Positions 1 through 3,979 of a stretch of 40,590 nt of DNA are shown one piece after another. The notes beneath the pieces were generated by a model, which saw nothing but the letters and a program-made list of their open reading frames with translations, was not told the DNA's origin and ran no database searches. Every line of letters starts with the position of its first letter. Position 1 is the stretch's first letter. Origin of the DNA: a virus; IMG/VR virus record IMGVR_UViG_3300034682_000448, positions 1 through 40,590 of that record, one strand, 5' to 3'. Made by a program: the position numbers and the translations under genes.

Positions 1-981
1 GCGTAATGCGCTGAGTACGGCATTGTTGGACATCGGCCGGTCGCCTCCTCGTGCCGAGGGGAAGGCGTACCGATGTCTGCCGGTGAGTGGTTTCAGCTCG
101 CGCAGAACCGCGACTGCTTGTTGGCTGAGAGGAACCAAATGATCCGGCCGATCCTGTTTGGTGGCAGTAAGCCCTTTCATCTTGTGACCAGGAATCAACC
201 ATTCGCCCGTATCCAGATTGACCTCCGACCACTCCATGTGACGCAGGTCTCCGGGTCGGCAGAACAGCAACGGAGCCAGTTTTAAGGCACAACAAACAGG
301 CATCGTTCCGCTATAGCTATCCAGTGCTTTAAGCAGAGCGCCGAGCTTTTCAGGGTCGGTCACGGCAGCAAAGTGTTTCACCCGCTTGGCTGGGAGCGTA
401 CGTGAGAGATTCCCAATCTGGTTGGGTGGGGTGATGCCGGCAGCTTCGGCGAACTCGAAAATTTGCTTGTAGATCTGAGCAACACGACGTGCTGTCTCGC
501 GCGCGCCGCGCTTGATGATGCGCTGGAGGTTTTCTACCAGCATGGGCGTGCTGATGCTGCTGATCGGGAGTTTCCCCAGCCAGGGGTAGGCATTGAGCTC
601 AAGGCGCTGCCGCACCGTGCGGGTGTACTCCGGGTCCCAGGAGGACTCGCGAATACTCAGCCACTGCGTGGCAACTGACTCAAACGTGTGCTGGTGATCG
701 AGCTGGCTGACCACCTTGGCCATGCGTCTTTGCAGTGAGGGGTCTTGGCCGCTGGCGAGCTGGACACGAGCATCATCACGTTTTCGCCGCGCCTCCTGCA
801 GGCCGACCTCTGGGTAAACGCCAAGAGCCAAGCGTTTTTCCTTGCCCAGAAAGCGATACTTCAAGCGCCAGTAACGGCCTCCGTTGGGCTGCACTTCCAG
901 GTACAAACCTTGTTCGTCATACAGGCGGTACGGCTTGTCCTGGGGCTTGGCGTTGCGGCAGTTGGTGTCTTTCAGGGGCAT
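1..981 (-). CDS. P4-type tyrosine integrase, C-terminus beyond the window
   Basis: This minus-strand reading frame starts at ATG 981 and runs off the window edge, giving the first 327 residues of a site-specific recombinase that would integrate and excise a genomic island or prophage. The N-terminus (about residues 1-85) has the DUF4102 arm-binding character of P4-type integrases, including NGGRYWRLKYRF and the stretch ending ALGVYPEVGL. A core-binding segment follows at about 95-190. The catalytic domain begins near 205 and shows the first catalytic arginine in FCRPGDLRHMEW (R242). The catalytic His and Tyr lie outside the window. The gene points away from the tmRNA fragment at 1155 and is unrelated to the prophage integrase at 1850-3043, so it probably belongs to a second element at the same site. 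Whether it is intact cannot be seen. Confidence 0.88.
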   Translation of the reverse strand, partial: MPLKDTNCRNAKPQDKPYRLYDEQGLYLEVQPNGGRYWRLKYRFLGKEKRLALGVYPEVGLQEARRKRDDARVQLASGQDPSLQRRMAKVVSQLDHQHTFESVATQWLSIRESSWDPEYTRTVRQRLELNAYPWLGKLPISSISTPMLVENLQRIIKRGARETARRVAQIYKQIFEFAEAAGITPPNQIGNLSRTLPAKRVKHFAAVTDPEKLGALLKALDSYSGTMPVCCALKLAPLLFCRPGDLRHMEWSEVNLDTGEWLIPGHKMKGLTATKQDRPDHLVPLSQQAVAVLRELKPLTGRHRYAFPSARGGDRPMSNNAVLSALR

Positions 982-1154: not shown

Positions 1155-1205
1155 TGGTGGAGCCGGGGGGATTTGAACCCGCGTCTAGTCCAGTAATGAC
1201 GCGGG
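1155..1205 (-). other. Prophage attachment site: 3' fragment of a tRNA-like gene, probably ssrA (tmRNA)
   Basis: Read on the minus strand, this segment ends GGCTCCACCA (CCA at 1157-1155). It is preceded by a T-arm-like GCGGGTTCAAATCCCCCC. The GACGCGGGTTCAA plus GGCTCCACCA combination matches the 3' end of bacterial tmRNA better than an ordinary tRNA. The matching 5' half with its conserved GATTCGAC start is absent from the following several hundred bases, and coding sequence begins at 1234. It is therefore a fragment created by integration into the 3' end of ssrA. The exact core cannot be delimited because the other att copy is not in the window. One T-stem pair appears mismatched, so a different tRNA-like target remains possible. 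Confidence 0.7.
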
Positions 1206-1233
1206 CTTCAGCTAATAGGCTGCCATAAAGCTG

Positions 1234-1875
1234 TCATTTGCTGGGCGGTATCACGCTCATGGACGCCCAGGCTCGCAACTGAACCTCGGGAAAGCTCTTG
1301 GTGATCCCTTTGAAAATCTGCTTATAGATTCCAGTGCTTTCTCGCCCCAGGATCCCTGCTGCATATAGGTTTCTGTAGGTGTCTCCGCCAGCCTTCTTAT
1401 GCTTTTCAAAGAATCGCAAAGTCGTCACATCTGCGTAGATTTCAGCTTTAACTAAGTTCACGCTCATATTTGAGCTGTTAAAATTCTTTTGTAAATATAG
1501 GTCTTTGGCGTGCATCAGTTCGTGATGAAGCAGAATTGTTTGCAAAGCCCAGTAAATATTAGGAGCTTCAGCTTCCGTAACGCCAGCTGGTTCTTGGCCT
1601 AGAAAGACGGCAGTCCCTACTGTGCCGTTCCTGACATAGTTGGTAGCAAATCCTCCGGCATTGGCCATTGTATACCCATTGTCCTCAAGGGACTGGATAG
1701 ATTGGTCTTTGAAACGCAGTACCGAATCAAATTCGATTCCAGCTTCTTGCAAATTTTCTTCTGGTGTTCTACTGAATGAGTTTTGACCAATAAACCTAAT
1801 GGATACGTTCAGTTCCGGATAAAAATTGGAGACGGCATAGAAAAGATCCTTAGTCTCCAGGCTTTGCTCCAACAT
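1234..1875 (-). CDS. Putative zinc metallopeptidase with gluzincin signature, cargo next to the attachment site
   Basis: The product is 213 residues with start ATG 1875; an in-frame upstream start at 1977 would lie deep inside the integrase gene. It carries HHELMHAKD, giving HExxH at about 118-122. A second acidic motif AEIYAD (ExxxD) follows about 23 residues after the second histidine, the spacing seen in gluzincins such as thermolysin. No signal peptide or membrane segment is seen, so a cytoplasmic or lysis-released role is likely. The start overlaps the integrase 3' end by 26 bp and AAGGGA precedes it. The region is richer in A and T than its neighbours, which suggests a recently acquired gene. 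The family is not recognised. An ImmA/IrrE-like protease, which also uses HExxH, is a less likely alternative. Confidence 0.72.
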   Translation of the reverse strand: MLEQSLETKDLFYAVSNFYPELNVSIRFIGQNSFSRTPEENLQEAGIEFDSVLRFKDQSIQSLEDNGYTMANAGGFATNYVRNGTVGTAVFLGQEPAGVTEAEAPNIYWALQTILLHHELMHAKDLYLQKNFNSSNMSVNLVKAEIYADVTTLRFFEKHKKAGGDTYRNLYAAGILGRESTGIYKQIFKGITKSFPEVQLRAWASMSVIPPSK

Positions 1876-3043
1876 GCTTAATCCCTTCGTTCGTTTTAAC
1901 TGATGACCAAAATTTTTCGGCTTTGAAACCTGCATCCACATCTGCCGATGGCATCCATCGACCATAGACGCGGGCAATCATGGTCCAATCAGTATGCCCC
2001 ATTTGCTTCGCCACCCACATCGGGTGCTCTCCTGCAGAAAGCATCATCGAAGCGTAGGTGTGCCGAGTCTGGTAGGGGCGCCGGTATCGAACGCCCGCCT
2101 TCTTCATTGCCGGGTGCCACATCGTCTTGCGGATCGGTTGATCTCCTGCCCAGCGCTCAAGCGTCCGAGGGTTTTGGAAGACCTCTGCATCAGCCAGGAA
2201 CGTGTGCGCCTTCTGCGCCGCAAGCGCTTCTAGAGCAGGGCCCAGCAGCTTCACCGATCGCCGGCCTGCGGCAGTCTTCGTTACCTCAGCCACCCCACCT
2301 GCAGCCTGGGTCATTGCCCGGCTGATCATCACCTCCCCACGTACCCAGTCCACATCTCCCCAATTCAGCGCTACAAGCTCGCTCGTCCGGAGGCCGGTCC
2401 ATAGCGCAAACTGAACCATGTTCCTGGCCTGGCCGCTCAAGGCTGCCAGAATTGCCTGCTGCTCCTCAGGCGAGAACGGGTCCACATCGTCATCCTTCGG
2501 TGGCGCTTCCTTCCTGGCGTATGTCCACCCGGCCAGCGGGTTGATATCCAGCAACTCCTCATCGACGGCATCATTGAGTGCTGATCGGAGGCAGCTCTGG
2601 ATGTTGCTCAGTGTCTTGTTGCTTACCTGCAGGCCGTCCAGCCAGTCACGAACCGTCTTGCGTTTGAACTCGATGACCAGGTGATGGCCGAGGGCTGGAA
2701 TCAGCCTCAGCTCGACAATCTTCCTGTATCCCGCAAAGGTGCTGCTGGAAATGTGCTTCTGCTTAGCGGCCAACCACCTGGTCAGAAATCCGCCCACGGT
2801 TTCCTGGCTGGTCTCCGGTGCAAATTTGGCGGCGCGGGGGGAGCCGGGGAACGTGACGGCATAGTCGAACGTCCCCTGGGCAATGGCGTGCTCGATCGCG
2901 GCCTTATGCTGCTGAGCCTTCTTCAGATTAGTGGCGGTGGGCTTGAGCGCGACGCGCTCGCGGCACCTAACACCCCGGTACATGAACGTGATCTCGATGC
3001 TCGAGTCTGAGACTGCCCTGACACCGCTCCCGCCTCTACCCAT
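1850..3043 (-). CDS. int: Prophage tyrosine integrase (DUF3596 arm domain)
   Basis: This 397-residue site-specific recombinase should integrate the prophage at the adjacent ssrA attachment site. The N-terminus (1-70, with SSIEITFMYRGVRCRERV) is a DUF3596-type arm-binding domain. A SAM-like core-binding domain lies at about 84-175 and the catalytic domain at about 190-375. Catalytic positions visible are R219 (TGLRTSEL), K256 (VTKTAAGRR), R327 (YQTRHTYAS), H350 (QMGHTD) and Y360 (RVYGRWMP). As in related integrases, the histidine of the HxxR box is replaced by tyrosine. The start at 3043 lies 121 bp inside the excisionase gene, so expression of the two is probably linked. Length and motifs look complete, so the enzyme should be active. 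Confidence 0.95.
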   Translation of the reverse strand: MGRGGSGVRAVSDSSIEITFMYRGVRCRERVALKPTATNLKKAQQHKAAIEHAIAQGTFDYAVTFPGSPRAAKFAPETSQETVGGFLTRWLAAKQKHISSSTFAGYRKIVELRLIPALGHHLVIEFKRKTVRDWLDGLQVSNKTLSNIQSCLRSALNDAVDEELLDINPLAGWTYARKEAPPKDDDVDPFSPEEQQAILAALSGQARNMVQFALWTGLRTSELVALNWGDVDWVRGEVMISRAMTQAAGGVAEVTKTAAGRRSVKLLGPALEALAAQKAHTFLADAEVFQNPRTLERWAGDQPIRKTMWHPAMKKAGVRYRRPYQTRHTYASMMLSAGEHPMWVAKQMGHTDWTMIARVYGRWMPSADVDAGFKAEKFWSSVKTNEGIKHVGAKPGD

Positions 3044-3198
3044 GATTCATATCCTTCCATGTCAATCAGCGTCCGGCCATCCGGCGCCTTTAGCCAAATT
3101 TCACCAAGCCGCCAGATCCCGTCGCGGATCTTTGAGCGGATCGCGTCTTCGGTGTAGCCAGACTCGCTGGCGAACTTTCTGACGGTCATGTAGCGCAT
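2923..3198 (-). CDS. xis: Excisionase
   Basis: This 91-residue basic protein is predicted to act with the integrase as recombination directionality factor. The start is ATG 3198 with GGAG eight to eleven bases upstream; a longer frame to 3237 has no support. The N-terminus MRYMTVRKFASESGYTEDAI followed by RSKIRDGIW is a winged-helix excisionase signature, and WLKAPDGRTLIDMEGYESWV is typical of excisionases beside DUF3596 integrases. The C-terminal 40 residues are read from DNA that also encodes the integrase start and are Ser/Arg-rich low-complexity sequence, so they may matter little for function. Only four bases separate it from the upstream DUF1566 gene. Confidence 0.88.
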   Translation of the reverse strand: MRYMTVRKFASESGYTEDAIRSKIRDGIWRLGEIWLKAPDGRTLIDMEGYESWVEAGAVSGQSQTRASRSRSCTGVLGAASASRSSPPPLI

Positions 3199-3202
3199 TG
3201 AT

Positions 3203-3979
3203 CTACTCCACCTGACGCGCCAGGTTTTGGTTGTCACGCTGACCTGTCACAACAGCCGTTGCCAGTGCCGCCAGCTCAGCTACCAATGCGTCCGTGCGTC
3301 CGTAGAATTTGCCGGTGTCCTCGTTCACGAACCGCTCGAGCACGTTGGCCACGGCGTGCTGGTTGGCCAAGCCGCGCAAATTGGCGCTGGGCACGGCCGT
3401 CTCGGTCGACGGAGCGTGGACGAAAGACTCTTGGCTGATCAGCAAGGTGCGCACCGGCCTGATGCCCTTGCATTTGCTCACCCAGTTCGTATCAGGCACG
3501 CACCAGGGCAGCATGTGCATGCACCAGGCCGTCGCTGCGTTCTCCTTCTGACTGCTGGTCCAGTACTCGCTAAGGCCGAACGCCTGGGCCGCCCCCCTGG
3601 CTGTGTACGACCCGTCGTGCCCCCAGTCCGGGAGCTGCAAAAGATTGCAGCGCAGGACCTGCAGCTCCTCGATCGACGGGATGTGCCAGCCCCATGTACC
3701 ACGGATGTTCATTCCCAGCACCTTGCGGGCGATAGCGCTGCCCTCGGCGGCCATTGCCTGAGTGTTGGCCAGACCGTCGAAACGCGACGTGGCACCCCGG
3801 ATGCGCGGGCGAGGGCCTTCTTCCTGCCACCAGTGGGCGGCCACTTCGAACTCCCGACCTGCGTCGATGACTGCGTGCTCCGCGCCATCGAAGAAGAGGC
3901 GGCCGGCGAATAAGCCGCCAGCCAGGGGCTGCCCAACGGCGGGGAGGGCAGCCGGGTTGATTGCTCGATGTTTGATCAT
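3203..3979 (-). CDS. DUF1566-domain phage protein
   Basis: The product is 258 residues from ATG 3979, preceded by GGGGA. It belongs to the phage group with a DUF1566 (Lcl C-terminal) fold: GLFAGRLFFDG near residue 25, a DGLANTQAMAAEGSAIA stretch, WHIPSIEELQVL and YWTSSQKENAATAWCMHM are characteristic. DUF1566 domains occur in surface and phage proteins, and no biochemical role is established for this early-region form. No signal peptide is present. It sits in the leftward operon, overlapped by 4 bases (ATGA) by the small upstream gene and followed closely by xis, so it should be expressed with the integration genes. About 60 C-terminal residues, including VLERFVNEDTGKFYGRTDAL, resemble an added helical tail. 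Confidence 0.8.
   Translation of the reverse strand: MIKHRAINPAALPAVGQPLAGGLFAGRLFFDGAEHAVIDAGREFEVAAHWWQEEGPRPRIRGATSRFDGLANTQAMAAEGSAIARKVLGMNIRGTWGWHIPSIEELQVLRCNLLQLPDWGHDGSYTARGAAQAFGLSEYWTSSQKENAATAWCMHMLPWCVPDTNWVSKCKGIRPVRTLLISQESFVHAPSTETAVPSANLRGLANQHAVANVLERFVNEDTGKFYGRTDALVAELAALATAVVTGQRDNQNLARQVE

Follow-up and report, generated by a model that had tools for sequence, protein, structure and literature searches.

A candidate zinc metalloprotease gene carried as a one-gene cassette between the integrase gene and the tmRNA attachment site of a Pseudomonas siphoprophage

The stretch of DNA analysed here (the window) comprises 40,590 nucleotides of the IMG/VR virus record IMGVR_UViG_3300034682_000448, and near its first letters a tyrosine integrase gene (int) and a fragment of a tmRNA gene enclose an open reading frame for a zincin-like protein of 213 amino acids (Table 1). 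An earlier note, made from the letters alone, had described this reading frame as an unrecognised gluzincin-type protease gene that is wedged between integrase and attachment site, is AT-richer than its surroundings and starts within int, and as regards the sequence itself each of these observations holds. The motif HELMH occupies residues 118-122 and AEIYAD residues 144-149, with 23 residues from H122 to E145; the 5' end of the gene has 26 bp in common with the 3' end of int; and the GC content of the gene is 0.45, compared with 0.595 for int and 0.607 for the whole window. A ribosome-site-like AAGGGA lies upstream of the start, and scans for promoters and terminators returned nothing above chance. 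When the residues of the protein were shuffled, HExxH arose in 0.5% of the shuffles and HExxH followed by a downstream ExxxD in 0.015%, and comparison of the gene with its closest copies gave dN/dS values of 0.05-0.18. By these measures of the sequence the reading frame is a real gene under purifying selection, and its product is a candidate cytoplasmic, single-domain zinc metalloprotease.

Table 1. Features around the zincin-like gene, in positions of the window
Feature	Position	Strand	Remarks
Second integrase, Arm-DNA-bind_3/Phage_int_M type	1..981	-	Open at the window edge; beyond the tmRNA fragment
tmRNA 3'-end fragment, GGTTCAAATCCCCCCGGCTCCACCA	1155..1179	-	One side of the attachment site; identical to the 3' end of the intact tmRNA gene of L171
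AATGACAGCTTT	1227..1238	-	Border of the cassette on the att side; contains the stop codon of the zincin-like gene
Zincin-like gene, 213 aa	1234..1875	-	ATG at 1875; residues H118, E119, H122, E145 and D149
Swappable cassette (last part of int and zincin-like gene)	1238..1940	-	Break points of DNA homology with relatives
Tyrosine integrase (int), 397 aa	1850..3043	-	Arm-DNA-bind_2, SAM-like, Phage_integrase
Excisionase	2923..3237	-	phrog_9668

The att side of the gene is marked by the tmRNA fragment. At the related locus L171 an intact tmRNA gene, called by ARAGORN, ends in the same GGTTCAAATCCCCCCGGCTCCACCA; the tmRNA gene is therefore the most likely integration site of the phage, and the window carries a displaced 3' fragment of it. 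No tmRNA was called within the window, where GGTTCAAATCCCCCCGGCTCCACCA was matched only once; it contains neither the second attachment site nor the full host tmRNA gene. The short sequence AATGACAGCTTT recurs at L171:1305-1316, there between the intact tmRNA gene and a relative of the zincin-like gene; it is probably an arm-binding site of the integrase, and a possible recombination border for the exchange of cassettes. The second integrase, on the far side of the tmRNA fragment, belongs to a neighbouring element or island and is not part of the zincin cassette, and the presence of two different tyrosine integrases flanking a tmRNA fragment suggests elements in tandem at one and the same tmRNA site.

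The extent of the mobile unit can be read from relatives whose int genes are 93-96% identical to that of the window. DNA homology with these relatives ends at about 1940-1906 on the int side and returns at about 1248-1238 on the att side, from where it continues through the att fragment, the exact borders differing by relative. Since homology is lost and regained at the two ends of the gene, the exchanged unit consists of the last part of int and the zincin-like gene alone, which supports the view that this Pseudomonas siphoprophage carries the gene as a single-gene cargo cassette. That the gene is accessory cargo had been proposed before, and among these relatives the swapping of cassettes is seen directly.

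In Pseudomonas siphoprophages the slot from int to tmRNA (1154-1940 in the window) is a hotspot for cassettes. In related prophages 72 int-att slots hold 37 distinct cassettes, every one of the 72 being lower in GC than its own int (mean 0.477 vs 0.597), and between its conserved flanks the slot has a cargo, defence genes among it, of high turnover. This cargo comprises DarT with DarG, HEC-06/GmrSD, PD-T4-10_B, PDC-M18A, PDC-M32A, PDC-S33 and Hp1/Hp2, and further an AriA/OLD-like ATPase, an HTH-M78 protein, SocA/Panacea with a partner, a zeta toxin and a RelA/SpoT-domain protein, some of the slot proteins having been picked by eye for the family search. A scan of 43 cargo proteins, one representative for nearly every cluster of slot cargo, gave at least nine defence families named by PADLOC among the 25 matches listed, as a raw count. 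The association with defence that the earlier note had expected of genes between int and att is thus borne out, for this slot, by the cassettes of the relatives. Hotspots of a comparable kind in prophages of the P2/P4 type have been found by experiment to act against phages (PMC9122126). Those loci are likewise small, of high turnover, near int, between conserved elements and filled with diverse defence genes, whereas the present slot is found in another group of phages, siphoprophages of Pseudomonas that occupy the tmRNA gene, and its neighbours are int and att instead of psu and int or Q and A. As hotspot cargo also includes toxin-antitoxin modules and genes of unknown function, location alone proves no defence role. 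A search of the open-licence literature found no description of the int-tmRNA slot or of the zincin-like gene family.

Two other kinds of cargo in the slot may be mentioned in their own right. The RelA/SpoT-domain proteins, of 388-389 amino acids, are encoded at L123:5187-6350 and L024:2722-3888, and may be CapRel-like phage-sensing toxins. At L022:6165-7861 the HTH-M78 (ImmA-like) protein is accompanied by a downstream partner of 172 amino acids that has no Pfam match.

Twelve relatives of the zincin-like protein, with identities of 28-99%, were recovered from Pseudomonas genomes and prophages. Four viral contigs have copies that are 92-99% identical, three of them visibly at the same place beside att; divergent relatives were present in 3 of 399 Pseudomonas genomes in the genome search, and alignment searches added the viral loci L193-L198 and one further genome, L203. 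The family falls into two clades, with about 30% identity between them and about 70% inside the second. An alignment search of 369 genomes of the class gave 0 matches, and the genome contig collection and the annotated phage and plasmid collections likewise returned no relatives; with none in the class sample and three in that of the genus, the family appears confined, in the sample searched, to Pseudomonas and its prophages. The position of the gene does not seem to be the same in all carriers. Tail or lysis genes adjoin the relatives in L193-L197, and in L171 the relative stands directly behind the tmRNA gene, so that in some carriers att seems to be flanked by the gene on the opposite side. 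In L194 the relative directly adjoins a pair of genes homologous to the PD-T4-10-like cassette. The relative in L203 is near a Schlafen-group helicase. A closer relative at L170:1456-1983 (51% identity over the matched part) has an N-terminal half that is broken or replaced, with HELMH and AEIYTD intact.

Throughout the family the presumed active site is constant. None of the residues H118, E119, H122, E145 and D149 varies in the alignment of 13 sequences, which extends down to an identity of 28%; all five are among its 21 invariant columns, a coincidence with a chance of 6e-6. HELMH and AExxxD are kept in the protein and in all 12 relatives, with a spacing from H to E of 23 in every case. The earlier note had recognised in this spacing the HExxH...ExxxD pattern of gluzincins and had counted homologues lacking the motif as evidence against its reading; the pattern is strictly conserved, and no such homologue occurs among the 12 relatives.

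Structure prediction and fold search, which had been suggested as a check, answered in part. A first model, built from five near-identical sequences, reached a pLDDT of 47 and was useless, and a second, from 13 sequences, is of medium confidence (pLDDT 63, pTM 0.64). In the second model strands at 75-82 and 85-92 are accompanied by a helix with HELMH (105-128) and a helix with E145 (141-158), which is the gluzincin arrangement of HExxH on one helix and the downstream E of ExxxD on another. Foldseek found no significant match for the second model in the PDB (every E above 0.1) or in BFVD (best E 6e-3), the weak BFVD matches including SprT, IrrE and M48-type viral proteins. In VIA-align HExxH-type metalloproteins fill nearly all of the best 31 rows (Z 7.3-3.7), among them Ste24, ACE/AnCE, M48-like proteins, selecase, abylysin, ArdC and DUF885, and unrelated folds appear from Z 3.3 down; as a common arrangement can be enough to give Z values below 8, these rows make a zincin fold likely and leave it unproven. 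The check thus favoured a zincin as regards the VIA-align rows, but not as regards the Foldseek searches or the confidence of the model. Overall, a zincin-like fold is likely, at moderate confidence, and the conserved active-site pattern is stronger evidence for a zincin than the fold comparison. One of the fold matches is an HExxH oxygenase domain (8s5f, Z 5.3), and one could suppose that the protein is an HExxH metalloprotein of some other chemistry, or that its role is structural or regulatory; the strict conservation of both the catalytic Glu and the gluzincin ExxxD makes this very unlikely.

The presence of ArdC among the zincin rows (6sna, Z 4.7; 6i89, Z 4.6) brings up counter-defence. 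ArdC of plasmid R388 helps conjugation to get past restriction. It is a metalloprotease-domain protein and is required for conjugation when the recipient is Pseudomonas putida (PMC7213743). By analogy, the present protein would destroy or block host defences, such as a restriction enzyme, a Cas protein or another sensor, and so aid the establishment of the phage, and expression early or in the lysogen would be in keeping with a position beside att. Both proteins would then be zincin-like domains employed in conflicts of mobile elements, in moderate structural alignment. For the ssDNA-binding part of ArdC, however, a single domain of 213 residues leaves little room, there is no Pfam match, and the recognised cargo of the slot is mostly defence or toxin-antitoxin-like rather than known anti-defence. 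We regard counter-defence as unlikely.

In family searches the protein had no match above cut-off in Pfam, NCBIfam, PHROGs or PADLOC, and its relatives had nothing convincing in NCBIfam, PHROGs or PADLOC; the word unrecognised was apt, the protein being claimed by no curated family in these collections. The profile searches against peptidase families that the note had also recommended produced a match to Peptidase_M91 (PF14891) which, at 13.6 bits (E 0.07-0.09), stays below the Pfam gathering cut-off of 25 bits, and no family passed. Alignment by hhalign with M91 domains from Pseudomonas gave a probability of 81%, but over only 17 columns round HExxH. The likeness is thus one of the HExxHA helix and a sub-threshold score, whereas the residues round the presumed third ligand differ, and what comes after HExxH in the M91 proteins of Pseudomonas (ERQAVGL ... 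FDFDNDP) is absent. Membership of Peptidase_M91 was rejected on these grounds. The same partial likeness might suggest an M91-kind effector of lysogenic conversion, which the bacterium would deliver into a eukaryotic host or a competitor; as the protein lacks a delivery domain and any additional N-terminal region, and lies in a slot whose recognised cargo is defence or toxin-antitoxin-like, such a role is highly improbable.

The alternative offered in the earlier note, an ImmA-like role in the cleavage of a repressor, has been weakened. Peptidase_M78/ImmA-IrrE (PF06114) proteins resemble the zincin-like protein in outline, with HExxH and a downstream helix containing E, and the slot of L022 holds one M78 member. 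In sequence there is no match: Pfam returned no Peptidase_M78 at E values up to 1, and hhalign against M78/ImmA domains from Pseudomonas gave a probability of 1.7%. The cassette has one gene and no paired repressor gene, and membership of the family is unsupported. A peptidase of this kind would cleave the repressor of its own or of a competing phage, and thereby control induction or exclude prophages, but integrase relatives with other cassettes evidently manage without the zincin-like gene, and we consider the probability of such a role to be very slight indeed. Nor was there a Pfam match to Peptidase_U49 (PF10463), the family of Lit, of which no members were found among the 143 genomes or the controls searched. 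What remains is likely a zincin family without a name.

The company of DarTG, SocA/Panacea with its partner and the zeta toxin in the slots of relatives might point to the toxin of a toxin-antitoxin or addiction module that kills cured cells, in which case the antitoxin would be encoded elsewhere or be an undetected short RNA or peptide. Against this stand the swapping of the zincin-like gene alone and the lack of a conserved second gene beside its relatives in L171, L172, L193-L197 and L203, and an addiction role is accordingly rated as distinctly unlikely.

Taken with the slot in which it is found, the zincin-like protein most likely acts in conflict between phages, and perhaps as a Lit-like abortive-infection protease. 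Few of the known anti-phage systems are, to our knowledge, stand-alone proteases, and Lit, encoded by the E. coli prophage e14, is longer than the 213 residues considered here. Lit is a single prophage-encoded HExxH protease, as the zincin-like protein would be, and the activity proposed for the latter is likewise a cleavage triggered by phage; the mode would be alike, with no homology implied between the two. In the case of Lit, the Gol peptide of phage T4 activates the protease, which then cleaves EF-Tu (PMC9712102).

We tentatively propose, as a possibility that falls somewhat short of an even chance, that the zincin cassette protects the lysogen against other phages as a phage-triggered, Lit-like zinc protease. 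For the protein we infer zinc binding, proteolysis, a trigger, a target and a protective effect, as follows. Zinc would be held by H118, H122 and E145 in the manner of gluzincins, with E119 as the general base and D149 orienting a histidine. Within the lysogen the protease would be kept harmless until a component of an infecting phage switched it on, whereupon it would cut an essential protein of host or phage, and infection would stop. No defence model of PADLOC matches the protein. The main reading of the earlier note, an accessory effector or anti-phage protease, is strengthened as far as sequence allows.

A bolder and rather doubtful suggestion is that Pseudomonas prophages carry, in these genes, single-gene anti-phage zinc proteases of a new family that is absent from the catalogues; besides Lit, and independently of it, they would provide a second example of a stand-alone protease which senses an infecting phage and stops it by the cleavage of a cellular protein. 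With its many cassettes that belong to no known family, the slot offers numerous candidate defence genes that are as yet unclassified, and a solo zincin in a slot of this defence type lends itself to direct testing, from which a new sensor of infection and a new cleavage target could emerge.
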